Part shown: piece after piece, positions 19,479 through 62,142 of the stretch
How the letters are laid out: every line of letters starts with the position of its first letter
Position numbering within the stretch: position 1 is the stretch's first letter
Origin: a virus
Virus record (IMG/VR): IMGVR_UViG_3300047469_000312
Coordinates: 108,465 to 172,464 of that record
DNA: 64,000 nucleotides
Direction: 5' to 3' (one strand)
Program-made: the position numbers and the translations under genes
Notes under the pieces: generated by a model
The model's database searches: none
What the model was told of the DNA's origin: nothing
Seen by the model: the letters and a program-made list of their open reading frames with translations, nothing else

Positions 19479-19713
19479 AGCCGTGGTCAATGGTGTTGCC
19501 GAAGGTGACATCAAGTTACTCAACACCAAAGACCTCATGAACATCCTGCGGGTCTCACGTTCGACGATCAATCGTTGGTTAAAAGATTCGACGGCCTGCG
19601 ACGTGCCCTTTCCTCAGCCGACGTTTATCTTCGGTCGAAGCGGTCGTTGGACCAAAGCCCATATCGTTGCCTGGGTGGATGCGAGCGTCAAGAAAGCTAA
19701 AGAGAAAGGATGA
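19459..19713 (+). CDS. AlpA/MerR-like DNA-binding protein, 84 aa
   Basis: LLNTKDLMNILRVSRSTINR is a helix-turn-helix of the AlpA / phage excisionase type, followed by the FPQPTFIFGRSGRWTKAHI wing and the VAWVDA end typical of the family. The ATG at 19459 overlaps the GNAT gene by 20 nt. It would bind DNA as a regulator or excisionase-like factor. The gene at 19939 is a second protein of the same kind. Confidence 0.7.
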   Translation: MSSTNIEAVVNGVAEGDIKLLNTKDLMNILRVSRSTINRWLKDSTACDVPFPQPTFIFGRSGRWTKAHIVAWVDASVKKAKEKG

Positions 19714-19714
19714 C

Positions 19715-19936
19715 ATGCGCTATAGGACAGCAAGAGAAGAAGTGAACCTCGTATGTTTTTGGCTCTGTCTGATCGCGGTCATCATTCTCGGCCTCTATCA
19801 GCTGCACGTGTATCGGGGCGAAGGCGTTCAGGACAAGGATCTCATCTGCACGCAAGGCGGCGCGGCTTACGTGATGTCGCTCGCCAAGATGATTCCGGTA
19901 CCGAGCAAGGACGCGGTCTGTAAGAAGAAGGAGTAG
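19715..19936 (+). CDS. Single-pass membrane protein, 73 aa
   Basis: AAAGGATG precedes the ATG. Residues 11-29 (VNLVCFWLCLIAVIILGLY) form one transmembrane helix; two cysteines follow in the outer part (DLICTQGG, AVCKKKE) and could pair in the periplasm. It lies between two AlpA-like regulators. Function unknown. Confidence 0.62.
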   Translation: MRYRTAREEVNLVCFWLCLIAVIILGLYQLHVYRGEGVQDKDLICTQGGAAYVMSLAKMIPVPSKDAVCKKKE

Positions 19937-20226: not shown

Positions 20227-20233
20227 TTTCAGA

Positions 20234-20243
20234 CCTATATAAC
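20234..20243 (+). promoter_or_regulatory. CCTATATAAC promoter-like box
   Basis: CCTATATAAC lies 60 nt upstream of the adhesin start. Similar boxes occur at 35670, 49408, 57439 and 63549, each in an intergenic gap before a + strand gene. The core resembles the TATATTAC early promoter of phiKZ-type phages. Confidence 0.55.
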
Positions 20244-20303
20244 AAAGGTGAGTTGGAAACAATACCAGCTTAATCCACTTCACCAACGGAAAATACAATC
20301 ATC

Positions 20304-22334
20304 ATGAAATCGAATTCGATCAAGAAGAATGCCCTCCTCATCGCTTTGCTCGCTTCTGTCTCGGTTGGCGCTTATGCCAACTGCGGAAACGGCTACAACG
20401 GTAACGGTAACGGCTGCGGCGAAGGTCAAGTCGGCCCGCAAGGCCCGGCAGGCCCCGCAGGTGCCAACGGCAAGGACGGCGCGTCGGTTACTGGCGTGAA
20501 CATCAGCGGTTCGACGGTGACGACCACGCTGTCGAACGGCACATCGGTACAAGGTTCCGTGTCGGGTCTGGCCACCTCGGCTCAGCTGAACAGCACCAAC
20601 CAGAACGTGTCGCAACTGCAGCAGACCACCCAGCAACAAGGCTCGGCGATCAACAGCCTGCAGGTGAACAGCGCCACGCATCAGGAAGTGACCGACACTG
20701 CTGCAGGCACGCTGGCTGCAGCGAACGTGCATACCGACGCTTCGGTGGCGGCTGAAGCAAGCCGTGCCAAAGGCGCGGAAGCCAACCTGCAGTCGCAAGT
20801 AAATGGTGTGTCGAGCACGGCTAACCAAGCCTTGTCGAACTCGCAAGCCGCGCAAGCAACGGCCGGTCAAGCGAAGTCGATCGCGCAAGGTGCAGACGCC
20901 AAGGCCAATACGGCAATCGGCATCGCCACCGGTGCCGCTATCACGGCAACGGGTGCTGCCATCGTCGCGGGTCACGCTGAAGGCGTCGCTGAAGGTGCAG
21001 CAGCTCTTGCACAATCGGCTACGGCTACGGCAAACACCGCCAATGCGAAGGCCGACGCCAACGCAACGGCGATCAGCAAGGAAACCACCCGTGCGACCAC
21101 CGCGGAAGCAGGTCTGCAAACCGGTGTGAACAAGGCGCAAGCGACGGCAGACGCAGCGGGTAAAGCCGCTTCGCATGCACAAGGTACGGCAGATGCCGCC
21201 CTGGTCGTCGGCAGTGCAGCACTCGGTCTGGCAGGTAAGGCAGAAGGCGACGCTCAGCACGCCCAGTCGACCGCGAACACGGCGCTGAATCAGTCCAAGC
21301 AAAACAGCTCGGCTATCTCGGACCTGCAAGCGAACAGCGCAACCCACGCTGAAGTTGCGACCGCCACGCAAACGGCGATCGATACGTCGATGGACTACAC
21401 CAACAACGTCGCGCACGATTTGCAAGCCCAGCAACAAGCCGGTGATGCGGCTACCCTGAGCGCCGCTAACGCGAACGCAGCAGCAGGGGATGCGAAGACG
21501 CTGAAGTCGGCGAACTCGCACGCCGATGCGGCCGCCGCCGCAGCTTACGTCGGTGCAGTGGCTACGTCGGGTGCTTACACCGACTACGTCGCAGGCAAGA
21601 CGCTTAACTCGGCCAAGGGCTACACCGACAAGCAAGTCGGCGCAGAATCGAGCCGTGCCCAAGCTGCCGAAAGCACGTTGCAGTCCAACATCAATACGGA
21701 ATCGAATCGCGCCCAGACTGCGGAAGCAGGCCTGAACACGAAGATCGACAACGAAACGACGCGTGCTACGACGGCAGAAGCCGGACTGCAAACCCAGATC
21801 ACCGGGAATACCCAGTCCATCACCCAGCTCCAAGCTGATGTGAATAAGGGCCAAGTCGGCGCAACCGCGAAGGTGCAGTCGAACAACTCGGTGGCACTCG
21901 GTGCGAACTCGGTGGCTGATCGTGACAATTCGGTGTCGGTGGGTTCCGCCGGTAACGAACGTCAGATCACCAACGTGGCGGCCGGTACGGCGCCGACCGA
22001 TGCAGCGAACGTGGGCCAGGTGAACTACGCGCAGCAACAGTCGTACGCTTACACCGACCGTGCGGTGGCGAACCTGCAGAACCAGTTCGACAGCTACAAG
22101 AAGGACACCTACGGTGGCCTCGCTTCGGTGCTGGCGATCGCGGGTCTGCCGCAACCGACGCAAGCAGGCAAGTCGATGATCTCCGCTGCGGTGTCGAACT
22201 ACCATGGCCAACAAGGCCTGGCAATCGGCGTCTCGACGGTGACCGGTGACAACCACTGGGTCATCAAGGCAGGCGTGTCAACCAGCAGCCGCGGCGACGT
22301 GGCGGCAGTGGGTTCGGCTGGCTTCCAGTTCTAA
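20304..22334 (+). CDS. Trimeric autotransporter adhesin (YadA type)
   Basis: 676 aa. It has a Sec signal peptide (residues 1-25, cleavage probably after AYA), a short collagen-like stretch ([13 protein letters not shown], about 44-56) and a long Ala-rich coiled-coil stalk with repeated [14 protein letters not shown] units. A YadA stalk motif ([20 protein letters not shown]) precedes a C-terminal beta-barrel anchor of about 75 residues with [15 protein letters not shown] and a terminal aromatic (GSAGFQF). This is the full layout of a type Vc outer-membrane adhesin rather than a tail fibre. It has its own promoter-like box and a strong terminator. In a phage it would be a host-surface (moron-type) protein altering adhesion or receptor access. 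Confidence 0.88.
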
Positions 22335-22345
22335 ACTGCTTCATG

Positions 22346-22407
22346 CCCACTACTTCCGGCTTCGGCTGGGGTAGTGGGTTGAGGGATTTCGATCCCTCTT
22401 TTTTTTT
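22346..22407 (+). terminator. Double terminator after the adhesin
   Basis: First stem CCCACTAC (22346-22353) with GTAGTGGG (22371-22378). Second stem GAGGGAT (22381-22387), TTCG loop, ATCCCTC (22392-22398), followed by nine T. It isolates the adhesin transcript. Confidence 0.9.
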
Positions 22408-22944: not shown

Positions 22945-23445
22945 ATGCGCCGATGGGGAAACGTCGTGGCGTTTTACACTCGTCGTGATTTCATGTCAAA
23001 CCACTACATCTGTCACTTCAAAGTGAAGGGCATTTCGTTCTCGTCGCTCGAGCAGTTCATGATGTACTGCAAGGCGATGCTCTTTAAGGACCACGATGTA
23101 GCGGAGCTCATTCTGAAGACCGATAACCCGCAAGCGCAGAAAGTCTTAGGACGCAAAGTGCGCGGTTACGTCGATGCAGTGTGGGTGGCCAAGCGAGAGC
23201 AGTTTATTCTCATTGGCATGCTTGAGAAGTATAGTCAGAACCCGCAGGAGCGCCAGTGGCTCCTCGAGACGGGCAATGACATCCTGGTCGAAGCCAGCGA
23301 ACGCGATACCGTGTACGGCGTGGGTCTCAGTGAAGACGATCCCCGTATCGAGAATCCCTATGAGTGGAAAGGTGCCAACTTGTGTGGTGTCCTGACCATG
23401 AAGGCTCGGGAGCAGTTGCAGACCCGAGCAGTTCGTGTGGGGTAA
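22945..23445 (+). CDS. NADAR-family protein (YbiA/RibX-like)
   Basis: 166 aa with the NADAR pattern: FYTRRDFMSNHYICHFKVKG, FSSLEQFMMYCKAMLFKDHD, KVLGRKVRG, VWVAKREQF, then LLETGNDILVEASERDTVYG with G at the usual W-G-x-G site. Members are N-glycosidases; characterised examples remove ADP-ribose from guanine or act on riboflavin intermediates. A phage copy could undo ADP-ribosylation used by host defence, or interfere with NAD-derived signals; this is inference. GGGAGAGA precedes the start. Confidence 0.75.
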   Translation: MRRWGNVVAFYTRRDFMSNHYICHFKVKGISFSSLEQFMMYCKAMLFKDHDVAELILKTDNPQAQKVLGRKVRGYVDAVWVAKREQFILIGMLEKYSQNPQERQWLLETGNDILVEASERDTVYGVGLSEDDPRIENPYEWKGANLCGVLTMKAREQLQTRAVRVG

Positions 23446-25845: not shown

Positions 25846-26370
25846 ATGGCACTCTCTGACGAACTCGCTCAACTTCAAACCGCAGTTGCCAGCACCGGCA
25901 CCGCGATCCACAATAAAGACAGTGCTGAAGCCACGACGCGCCAGAATGCGGATATTGCGCTCGGCGCGCAGGTCGGCAGTCAACGGGGTCTGGTATCGAT
26001 CAAAACGGGCGCCAGCACCCTGCCAGCCGATCCTTGGGGGTATGTCTACCAGACCGACGCGGCGAACACCACGGGTGCGCTGAGCACTGCTTTGCCTGCT
26101 GCAGCACCTGCCAACGCGGGTAAGCGCTTGGTCTTTGAAAATACCTCGGGGTTTAACTGGACGCTCACGGCGTCCAACATTTTGTCCTCGCAAAGCAACG
26201 GCGCGGCTTCACTGGTGCTCGCCCCTGGTACGACGGCTGAACTCTATCACGACGGTGCCAGCTACCTGGTCGAAGGCGGCACCTATGTAAGTGGCGGCAA
26301 CGGTAAGACGACAGTGTCCGCTGCGGCTCCCTCGGGTGGTGCGAATGGCGATACTTGGTATCAGGTGTAA
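25846..26370 (+). CDS. Tail-fibre-like structural protein, 174 aa
   Basis: Low-complexity Ala/Thr/Gly/Ser sequence typical of phage fibre parts: an N-terminal helical segment (ELAQLQTAVASTGTAIHNKD) and a beta-rich remainder ending SGGANGDTWYQV. GGAG precedes the start. It opens the fibre block 25.8-35.6 kb. Probably a virion adhesin component; exact place unknown. Confidence 0.62.
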   Translation: MALSDELAQLQTAVASTGTAIHNKDSAEATTRQNADIALGAQVGSQRGLVSIKTGASTLPADPWGYVYQTDAANTTGALSTALPAAAPANAGKRLVFENTSGFNWTLTASNILSSQSNGAASLVLAPGTTAELYHDGASYLVEGGTYVSGGNGKTTVSAAAPSGGANGDTWYQV

Positions 26371-26372
26371 AC

Positions 26373-27086
26373 ATGCCGATCTACAAGAACATTAGCGGAA
26401 CGTGGACTGTCACCAAACACCTCTGGCGCAACATCAACGGCACCTGGACCAAGGTGCGGCGCGCCTTTCGCAATGTGAACGGCACCTGGACGCAGTACCA
26501 CGGCGATAACGACTTTACGGCGTATTCGTTGGGCTTGCTCCAGAACCGTATTGCGGCGGCCAATGGGGGACTGTGGATGAATGGGGCCCAGAAGTTGGGT
26601 CCGACTCGCTCTTACAGTCTTGTCACCTTTGACAAGTACGGCAACATCGCCTTTAGTCGCTCGTACGATATTTTCGGCGAAGCCTCGGACGGCTCACCTA
26701 CCGCGACCCCGTATGGTTCGGCACAGTTTTCAGCCGACGTGGGCGCGCTCGCGACGGGTACGAACTTCGTGCTCGTCACCTACGACGAACCCGCGAGTGG
26801 TGTCGCCCCCGTTGAGCCAGGGGTGACTAATCCCCCGATCGCAGCGGTTGATAACGCACTGGTGGCGCTCGGAGCCTCGAGCTCGATGTTAAACAGTATT
26901 CAGTATCGAGGCGCGTACTTGCTGCTCGGTAGCAAGGGGGGCACCAAGGCGGCTGAGCTCTACGCCGGGACGTATCAAACCGGCATTGGTAGCGGTGGCA
27001 CGGACGCGGGTTGTTTGGATGGCGCCGTGGGTGTCACGTTCAATGTGGTCAACGGAGTCATCAGTAACGTGGTAAGGACACTTTAA
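26373..27086 (+). CDS. Tail-associated structural protein, 237 aa
   Basis: Three imperfect repeats near the start: KNISGTWTVTKHLW, RNINGTWTKVRRAF, RNVNGTWTQYHG. Such GTW repeats occur in phage tail-tip and fibre proteins. The remainder is Gly/Ala/Thr-rich beta structure. The ATG at 26373 is preferred to an upstream in-frame start lying in the previous gene. Confidence 0.62.
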   Translation: MPIYKNISGTWTVTKHLWRNINGTWTKVRRAFRNVNGTWTQYHGDNDFTAYSLGLLQNRIAAANGGLWMNGAQKLGPTRSYSLVTFDKYGNIAFSRSYDIFGEASDGSPTATPYGSAQFSADVGALATGTNFVLVTYDEPASGVAPVEPGVTNPPIAAVDNALVALGASSSMLNSIQYRGAYLLLGSKGGTKAAELYAGTYQTGIGSGGTDAGCLDGAVGVTFNVVNGVISNVVRTL

Positions 27087-27089
27087 GCA

Positions 27090-27812
27090 ATGAACCCAAT
27101 CGCCCTTCTGGCAGCAGCGCAGCGTGCGCAAGCTGTCTATATTCCCGATGCGCTGGCTGCTCAGAAGGCCTTCAGCGGGCTCGGGATGACTTACCTGGGA
27201 CAATACCAGGATGCCACTCACCAAGGCGCTGTATCGACTGATAGCAAGGGTCGTTACTATGTGTCCATTTCCGGCACGCGTTACTCCGAAGGCTACGGGG
27301 CGGATCTCTTTGCTGATATTTGGCTGGCACCGCATGACTGCTTAAAGGGCGGTCAAGTCGCCTCAGGCATCATCGAAGGCATGGACAAGTTCTGGGCCTG
27401 GGCTTTGAGTAAGATCCCGGCTACCGCAGAAATCAGTGTCGAGGGTCACTCCTTGGGGGCTGAGCGCGCTTTGCTCACGCCGATGTTTCTGCCCAAAGAA
27501 CGCGTCGGTGACATCTATGCATTTGAGCCGCCGATGTTTGCCACCCCGGAATGGTGGGCAGCCTATGGACCCGATCTGGTGAACGCGGTCTGTACGGTAC
27601 AAGGTGCTGACCGCTGGTTTGCCTGGCCCCCGCGTCAAGGCTATGTCCACAACCCGGCAGGCAAGTATATGTGGTTGATGTCGACCGCCGCTGAGTGGAT
27701 CAAGGCGACTGACTGGAAACCCTCCGGCTTCTCAGACCAGGACCACTCGATTGACCGTTTGGTGGAGCGGGTGCAAGAAGCCATTCATGGCAACTGGTTC
27801 CCGCAATTCTAG
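27090..27812 (+). CDS. Lipase / alpha-beta hydrolase-like enzyme
   Basis: 240 aa with the class-3 lipase pattern: a strand VSISGTRYSEG, then the nucleophile elbow VEGHSLGAERAL (G-H-S-L-G, Ser121), AFEPPMF and a late His region (DQDHSI, His about 223). It lacks a signal peptide and sits inside the tail-fibre block, so it may be a virion esterase acting on host surface lipid or polysaccharide esters. Alternatively it acts inside the cell. AAGGA precedes the start. Confidence 0.72.
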   Translation: MNPIALLAAAQRAQAVYIPDALAAQKAFSGLGMTYLGQYQDATHQGAVSTDSKGRYYVSISGTRYSEGYGADLFADIWLAPHDCLKGGQVASGIIEGMDKFWAWALSKIPATAEISVEGHSLGAERALLTPMFLPKERVGDIYAFEPPMFATPEWWAAYGPDLVNAVCTVQGADRWFAWPPRQGYVHNPAGKYMWLMSTAAEWIKATDWKPSGFSDQDHSIDRLVERVQEAIHGNWFPQF

Positions 27813-60803: not shown

Positions 60804-60831
60804 CGTATACAACCACTTACAATTGAAACAA
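60804..60831 (-). promoter_or_regulatory. Possible - strand promoter for the array
   Basis: On the - strand, TTGTTT (60826-60831) and TATACG (60804-60809) lie 16 nt apart in the gap between the tas start and the array. This is a weak sigma70-like pair reading into the array. Confidence 0.25.
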
Positions 60832-60843
60832 GGAAACCGAATC

Positions 60844-62142
60844 ATGAATACCCCGATCATCGCCCCGACCTACAACCCGAATCTCGCTGTGATTCGCACC
60901 ATGGTGCGCTCAGCCTACGACATGCAGGGTCTGCGCATTCAGATGGGGAACCGCGTGACCGCCAGCTTCAAAGCCAAGCTCGGTCTGCGTCAGGACGGCA
61001 TGAGCGAGGCCGAACTCGAGAAGCAGGAAAAGAACCTGCTCGAGCAGTTGCGCAAGTCCTATCGTCGTATCACTGACGGCATCATCGACGAGCACCACGA
61101 CGACACCACAGAAGCCATCGAAACGATGACCGCTAAGCTTCCCACCGAGAAGAAATTCAAGGGCGACGAGCTCATCACGCACTACAGCGAACTGCTGCTG
61201 GTGGATAACTACCTGAACACGCTCAAGAACGAAGAGCACCACTTCAAGGACATGGAGCGGATTCTGAAGAAGATCCCGATCTACACAGAGTTCTTGTCCG
61301 GGGTGCGCGGCATTGGTCCGGCTTTGGCGGGCATCATCGTCTCCGAAATCGACATCACCAAGGCCGAGTATCCGTCAAGCCTGTGGAAGCTCGCTGGGCT
61401 GGACGTGGTGCATATTGGCAAGTACGTCGACGACAAGGGTCGTGAGCAGACCGTGCGCGGGCAAGAAATCGACGCCTGGTACGCCGACAGCAAGAACTTC
61501 GATCTGCCGATGCTCGCCGAAGGCAAGTACCCGGTGACCTTCGAAGCAGTTGGTCGGTCGCGGCGCGACTTCTGTTTGGTGCAGAAGGAATACACCAATC
61601 GCGAGGGCGAGCAGGCGTTGCGGGATTCGATCACCTTCAACCCGTTCCTGAAGACTAAGCTGATCGGCGTGGCCGGTACCTCGTTCTTGCGCGCAGGCAT
61701 CTCCACCGTGGATGGCAAGAAAGTCGGCGCAGTCCGTCGACTGGAACTGGCCAAGGAAGAAGGCTTTGATCCGAAGGACTACGCGGAGATGGACGAAGAC
61801 CAAGCTGTCATCATCTATCTGCGCGCCAAGGGTCACACGGTAGTCGTCGAACCGAGCCCGTATGCGGTGATCTACAACAATTACAAGAACCGCCTGAAGA
61901 ACGATCCGCGCCACGCTGAGAAGACGGACCTGCATAAGCACAACATGGCGATCCGCTATATGGTCAAGCGCTTCTTGGTCGATCTGTACAACAAGTGGCG
62001 GGCGCTGGAAGGTCTGGTCGTCGCTCCGGAGTACTCGGAAGGCGTGCTGGGCAAGGTGCACGGCGTCGCGAAGGAAGCTGGTTGGCAACACCCGCGTTAC
62101 CGCGCCGCGACGGGCGGTCAGCATCCCAATCACTCAGCCTAA
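60844..62142 (+). CDS. Nop/Transposase_20-domain protein, probable Tas protein of the nuclease-less (TasA) type
   Basis: 432 aa. An N-terminal region is followed by a long helical stretch (about 50-145) and then LSGVRGIGPALAGIIVSEI (152-169), the helix-hairpin-helix-like signature of the IS110/IS116 Transposase_20 domain, continuing WKLAGLDVV. A C-terminal helical part (YAVIYNNYKNRLKNDP..., KHNMAIRYMVKRFLVDLYNK) matches the end of the same domain. This domain is related to the Nop domain of box C/D RNPs and of Tas proteins. No DEDD (RuvC-like) transposase domain and no HNH or RuvC nuclease is visible, so it should bind RNA-guided DNA without cutting it. AAGGAAA precedes the ATG. The 36-bp array lies 47 nt upstream. 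Confidence 0.82.
   Translation: MNTPIIAPTYNPNLAVIRTMVRSAYDMQGLRIQMGNRVTASFKAKLGLRQDGMSEAELEKQEKNLLEQLRKSYRRITDGIIDEHHDDTTEAIETMTAKLPTEKKFKGDELITHYSELLLVDNYLNTLKNEEHHFKDMERILKKIPIYTEFLSGVRGIGPALAGIIVSEIDITKAEYPSSLWKLAGLDVVHIGKYVDDKGREQTVRGQEIDAWYADSKNFDLPMLAEGKYPVTFEAVGRSRRDFCLVQKEYTNREGEQALRDSITFNPFLKTKLIGVAGTSFLRAGISTVDGKKVGAVRRLELAKEEGFDPKDYAEMDEDQAVIIYLRAKGHTVVVEPSPYAVIYNNYKNRLKNDPRHAEKTDLHKHNMAIRYMVKRFLVDLYNKWRALEGLVVAPEYSEGVLGKVHGVAKEAGWQHPRYRAATGGQHPNHSA

Follow-up and report, generated by a model that had tools for sequence, protein, structure and literature searches.

A trimeric autotransporter gene behind an early-type promoter in nucleus-forming jumbo phages, probably acting at the surface of the infected cell

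The window, which is the whole stretch of 64,000 nucleotides analysed here, comes from a phage record that is itself a 172,464 bp fragment, and it contains a gene for a trimeric autotransporter adhesin (TAA) set between a promoter box and a terminator (Table 1). Type Vc adhesins are virulence and biofilm factors of bacteria, and in phages they are known mainly from prophages. A signal peptide, a collagen-like stretch, a coiled-coil stalk, and a YadA-type anchor had been proposed for this product in a sequence-only reading, and the agreement of a signal-peptide rule, Pfam, matches to NCBIfam models and solved TAAs, AlphaFold2, and Foldseek indicates that this architecture is present and complete. 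Under a strict rule (two or more Lys/Arg, a hydrophobic core, and small-X-Ala), only one of the 112 plus-strand ORFs in the window passes, namely the TAA ORF. The YadA_anchor family (PF03895) matches residues 616–676 over its full length, at 60 of 60 positions (E=1.2e-14; 54.5 bits, with a cut-off of 22.7), and it also matched 11 of 12 other proteins examined. The last 160–200 residues match eleven solved TAA sequences as well as the BimA and YadA models of NCBIfam.

Table 1. Features of the TAA locus, in window positions.
Feature	Position	Strand	Details and basis
Early-type phage promoter box	20227..20243	+	TTTCAGACCTATATAAC; 17/17 match to motif TTTCARACCTATATWAC
Trimeric autotransporter (type Vc) gene	20304..22334	+	ATG start, 676 aa
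Sec-type signal peptide, residues 1–25	20304..20378	+	Predicted cut after AYA; rule-based
N-terminal tip, cysteines C27 and C38	20382..20417	+	Both invariant in 8/8 core homologs; alignment
Collagen-like run, residues 41–61	20424..20486	+	Seven Gly-X-Y triplets; sequence
Ala-rich stalk, residues 96–515	20589..21848	+	Presumed trimeric coiled coil; sequence composition
YadA-type head repeat and neck, residues 516–569	21849..22010	+	Sequence and fold matches
Membrane anchor: helix 570–613, four strands 624–674, C-terminal Phe	22011..22331	+	Pfam, AlphaFold2, Foldseek
First hairpin past the stop	22347..22378 (about)	+	CCCACTAC...GTAGTGGG, no T tract; sequence
Rho-independent terminator	22381..22407	+	GAGGGATTTCGATCCCTC and nine T, hairpin about 22381–22398; terminator scan, sequence

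Residues 516–676 were modelled with AlphaFold2 as a single chain from 32 aligned loci, the FLC9 row being left out, and the model (mean pLDDT 86.5) has a long helix and four strands, the anchor fold of one chain in trimeric autotransporters. Foldseek superposed the anchor on Hia (2gr8) at 0.8 Å over 77 columns, with a TM score of 0.95 by target, and on YadA (2lme) and AtaA (9vnj) at 1.7 Å each; it also placed the model on the heads of BoaA and BpaC. By both sequence and fold, the head/neck and anchor resemble solved SadA, Hia, BpaC, BoaA, YadA, and AtaA, with the head/neck matches falling on SadA (2yo0), BpaC (7o23), and BoaA (3s6l). The head and neck are accordingly established by sequence and fold, while the coiled coil of the stalk is presumed from composition. 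The collagen-like stretch is plain in the sequence, and the Pfam search returned no collagen family for the TAA protein, the run being short. Against PHROGs, the protein had weak matches only, to families of unknown function. The two cysteines at the tip may form a disulphide cap. We rejected a lipoprotein attached through cysteine 27, as no lipobox is present and the preceding residue is Asn, Ser, Asp, or Thr/Ser in the homologs.

The motif TTTCARACCTATATWAC, with its core TATAT[AT]AC, occurs at 10 sites in the record, every one of them on the coding strand, where 0.67 core matches are expected per strand; in FLC9 all 14 core sites lie on the coding strand. Upstream of the TAA gene the box is identical in five of eight genomes (our own record, FLC9, L004, L005, and L006) and degenerate in L007, and none was recognised there in L008 and L009. 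A variant, CATATTACTAACTTGT, precedes the gene for chimallin, the nuclear-shell protein, in our own record, FLC9, and three relatives. The “promoter-like box” of the sequence-only reading has thus gained substance: judged by its sequence, it is a real, recurring class of phage promoter and not a chance match. The extended form TTTCA..CCTATAT[AT]AC resembles the published predicted promoters of phiKZ, 201phi2-1, OBP, EL, and N1M2 (PMC7058600), and such motifs, where tested, are early promoters read by the virion RNA polymerase in jumbo phages encoding RNA polymerases (reviewed in PMC7598289). Motif comparison likewise finds the phiKZ-type pattern, a conserved AT-rich motif of ~10 nt upstream of early operons, and a sigma-70 promoter scan found nothing at the box. 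We infer with good reason that the TAA gene is transcribed early, the timing being read from the likeness of the motif. Within the window the motif stands at 20227, 35672, 49410, 57432, and 63551, with others elsewhere in the record, and it offers a candidate map of early operons in a genome whose genes are all hypothetical; a PHROGs search was largely uninformative for the genes that follow the other boxes. At the other end of the gene, the proposed double terminator holds as two successive hairpins, of which the second alone has a T tract. FLC9 and the IMG/VR orthologs likewise end in a hairpin with a T tract.

Just upstream of the TAA gene (19712–19936) lies a small single-TM protein, the counterpart of FLC9 gp241, with a conserved periplasmic-looking CTxGGAAY; it is a possible partner of the TAA. 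A NADAR-domain protein (22945–23445; PF08719, E=3.5e-41) is encoded 0.6 kb downstream and perhaps counters ADP-ribose or NAD-based defence. Further along are weak matches to ILEI (26355–27086, E=5e-4) and to lipase class 3 (27090–27812, E=0.0084), as well as a transposase-like protein (60823–62142; phrog_4285, E=1.5e-26) with no Pfam match.

The TAA is conserved within a lineage of nucleus-forming jumbo phages, a point that the sequence-only reading did not have. Its ortholog, gp240, is collinear in the isolated phage FLC9 (321,833 bp), a jumbo phage of Burkholderia glumae in which this gene, like every other, is annotated “hypothetical”. Among the products recognised in FLC9 are the sheath, the large terminase, the major head protein, RNA polymerase beta subunits, and the nuclear shell protein; this last, gp382, is a chimallin (phrog_4795, E=1.1e-99). 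A 2025 review placed FLC9 with the Chimalliviridae, its genus being unnamed (PMC12388082). Our own record has a chimallin (80% identity over 638 residues) and baseplate-type genes; it lacks the remaining FLC9 markers, which fits a fragment, apparently of a phage genome of ~310–320 kb. Six IMG/VR phage records of 244–315 kb also carry the TAA, and chimallin is present in all eight core TAA records (our own, FLC9, and these six). More distant TAAs were found in two further records, only one of which has a chimallin match. L036 (JARLJL010000015.1), a 245-kb jumbo-phage-like contig in a Sulfuriferula MAG, likewise carries a distant TAA, whose collagen stretch is very long, and a chimallin match occurs in the same assembly. 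Eleven chimallin-bearing records at a greater distance lack the YadA anchor, so the TAA is an accessory of one branch and not of the whole family, with the caveat that several records may be incomplete. The literature we covered, incompletely, held nothing on point about TAAs in Chimalliviridae or jumbo phages.

In the alignment, all eight core proteins keep the signal peptide, the two N-terminal cysteines, the head/neck, the anchor, and the C-terminal Phe. The collagen run varies, being absent in FLC9 and L005 and longer in L006–L009 and L036, and the stalk differs in length by blocks among homologs. Estimates of dN/dS are about 0.06–0.5 in all computable domain comparisons, the signal peptide included. 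Synonymous divergence is uneven along the gene (for the window TAA versus L005, dS is 0.08 in the anchor and 0.58 in the stalk), which indicates exchange of segments between phages. These data bear on whether a captured host gene is simply carried along without benefit. Absence from the 11 distant records, by which the gene is not essential to the family, would agree with such a passenger, but purifying selection is seen at dS near saturation, every close relative examined has the gene, and its promoter and terminator are conserved, which leaves this idea scarcely credible.

An anchor tree of 83 columns puts nine phage sequences in one clade (99/92), with the phage anchors L031 and L035 just outside, and this clade is nested with anchors of Caballeronia, Trinickia, and Burkholderia (support 100/98). 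Such nesting inside Burkholderiaceae TAAs points to a probable capture from a Burkholderiaceae host, for which we consider the evidence moderate, not strong, with 83 columns only.

Weak anchor matches in unrelated phages led to four more proteins, phiEco32 gp119, Munch_428, RYC VCPH_00147, and AAM22 gp20. In each, the N-terminus is signal-like and PF03895 matches with E no worse than 2e-11 (phiEco32 gp119 from an internal Met); Munch and AAM22 pass the signal rule, whereas phiEco32 and RYC fail it and their signals were judged by eye. The phiEco32 and Munch versions also have collagen repeats. The annotated start of phiEco32 gp119 (L117:3419-4216) is probably 39 codons early, hiding the signal peptide; from the likely start the protein has 226 aa and keeps collagen and anchor, with hardly any head. 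The phiEco32 copy sits among early genes (PMC8948821, PMC4281155), and in virulent Salmonella phages yadA homologues that do not lie near the tail genes have been considered as possible virulence genes (PMC3728262). Two Salmonella WGS matches were left out of the phage count, and the Acinetobacter “phage” matches H20 and H21 were not accepted as phage evidence, since the Acinetobacter one is surrounded by ordinary bacterial genes and adjoins ompA. Relative to the sequence-only reading, the new elements are that the promoter belongs to a recurring phage class and that similar proteins occur in unrelated lytic phages.

Whether the product belongs to the cell or to the virion was weighed from several directions. 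An infected-cell surface protein had been proposed in place of a tail fibre, and at the sequence level this is upheld by the signal peptide, the sequence and fold of the anchor, the C-terminal Phe, selection on every domain, the early-type promoter, and a setting which in FLC9 is a block of small non-structural genes, with the polymerase, sheath, head, and shell genes elsewhere. A tail fibre was rejected on the conserved signal peptide, the barrel anchor, and the gene context. A YadA-domain protein has been detected by mass spectrometry in particles of the cyanophage S-SZBM1 (PMC9146016), and several phage records annotate such genes as “tail protein”; yet assembly in the cytoplasm makes no sense of a signal peptide and an outer-membrane barrel, the TAA gene has its own promoter and terminator, the structural genes of FLC9 lie elsewhere, and SU10, a phage of the phiEco32 group which lacks the gene exactly between its neighbours, still makes full virions (PMC4281155). 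A virion fibre like those of some cyanophages is therefore very improbable here. Proteomics of SU10 was dropped as an argument on the virion role, since this phage has no copy; SU10 serves only to show that the gene is dispensable in the group. From their N-termini, the lytic-phage genes labelled “tail protein” or “agglutinating adhesin” also probably encode surface proteins of infected cells.

We consider it very likely that the TAA is displayed early on the outer membrane of the infected cell. With a complete surface-fibre gene behind an early-like promoter, the infected bacterium probably shows a phage-made fibre well before it bursts. The phiKZ-type promoter would be read early, probably by the virion-packaged RNA polymerase, which would put the 5′ end of the transcript just after CCTATATAAC. 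The signal peptide would direct the chains to Sec, and three of them would insert through the host BAM as one 12-strand barrel, pushing out a stalk whose tip is collagen-like or beta-rich and bears cysteines. In the minutes before lysis, the fibre would coat the outer membrane, where it may act as a steric brush that makes it harder for further phages to adsorb, and for progeny to bind doomed cells and debris. The explanation as a whole, that a Burkholderiaceae-type TAA was captured and kept by nucleus-forming jumbo phages, is transcribed early and displayed on the outer membrane, with shielding of the cell as the leading candidate for its benefit, appears likely to us.

The benefit itself is less certain than the display. 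Shielding or superinfection exclusion is our leading candidate, held tentatively and ahead of aggregation and then of help in a carrier state, because the smallest phage versions can do without the head and a shield helps the phage regardless of whether neighbouring cells are infected; phages that lyse within about an hour are assumed to leave enough time for display. The sequence favours neither shielding nor adhesion, and known TAA stalks and heads do aggregate cells. The fibre might instead join infected cells together or fix them to a surface, and the burst would then free progeny beside new hosts or in a biofilm. Autoaggregation is common among TAAs, Eib proteins on prophages such as P-EibA chain and clump cells by homotypic contact (PMC12511318), and the YadA head/neck is retained here; however, homotypic sticking requires neighbours that also express the fibre, and a minimal phage version such as phiEco32 gp119 retains collagen and anchor with hardly any head, so that aggregation is possible but the less probable purpose. 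Jumbo phages have also been discussed as pseudolysogens with surface-modifying genes (PMC7824862), and Eib provides a case of TAAs used in a plasmid- or prophage-like manner; on this reading the gene could help a living infected host to colonise or to exclude rivals, like the morons Lom and Eib. This we think rather unlikely, as no lysogeny genes were noted, the early-type promoter suits lytic infection, and phages related to FLC9 are regarded as lytic (PMC12388082).

Early display of a short TAA may extend beyond this lineage. We suggest, speculatively, a strategy acquired repeatedly by lytic phages of Gram-negative hosts, in which at least four unrelated phage groups would have taken bacterial TAA genes and reduced them to a signal peptide, a collagen or coil part, and an anchor, early display shutting competitors out of the infected cell at its surface or keeping progeny off debris. 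For a lytic, nucleus-forming jumbo phage that seemingly makes a TAA early, the surface of the infected cell would be remodelled before lysis. Localisation, timing, and effect are directly testable, as the cultivable isolate FLC9, studied for control of rice seedling rot, carries the gene.

T5 Llp is an early phage lipoprotein at the outer membrane that acts in superinfection exclusion on one receptor. The TAA shares with it, and with other early superinfection-exclusion surface proteins, that an early phage product would be exported to the outer membrane; Llp differs as a lipoprotein acting on a single receptor, and the likeness is one of logic, with no relation of sequence or fold claimed. 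With the TAAs of Burkholderiaceae (BpaC, BoaA, and unnamed ones of the B. cepacia complex), the head/neck and anchor are common, at ~59% identity to Burkholderia loci over 161 aa, and collagen-like domains have been described in some host adhesins too (PMC10224339). In contrast to these, the present TAA is phage-borne and shorter, and has a phage promoter and an anchor in a phage-specific clade. Phage-borne TAAs have prior examples in the Eib prophages and the yadA homologues of virulent Salmonella phages. The EibA-type TAAs of lambdoid prophages are likewise phage-encoded, YadA-anchored single genes with stem-loops, but they belong to temperate phages, benefit the host, and have an unrelated passenger and an anchor ~36% identical. 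The yadA homologues of virulent phages (phiEco32 gp119, Salmonella FSL SP-058/076, Munch, and Pantoea AAM22) share a signal or signal-like N-terminus, a stalk, PF03895, often collagen, and a position away from tail genes; they differ in coming from unrelated phages with anchors outside the FLC9 clade, and earlier reports regard them as possible virulence genes or label them “tail protein”, without treating them as early surface proteins.
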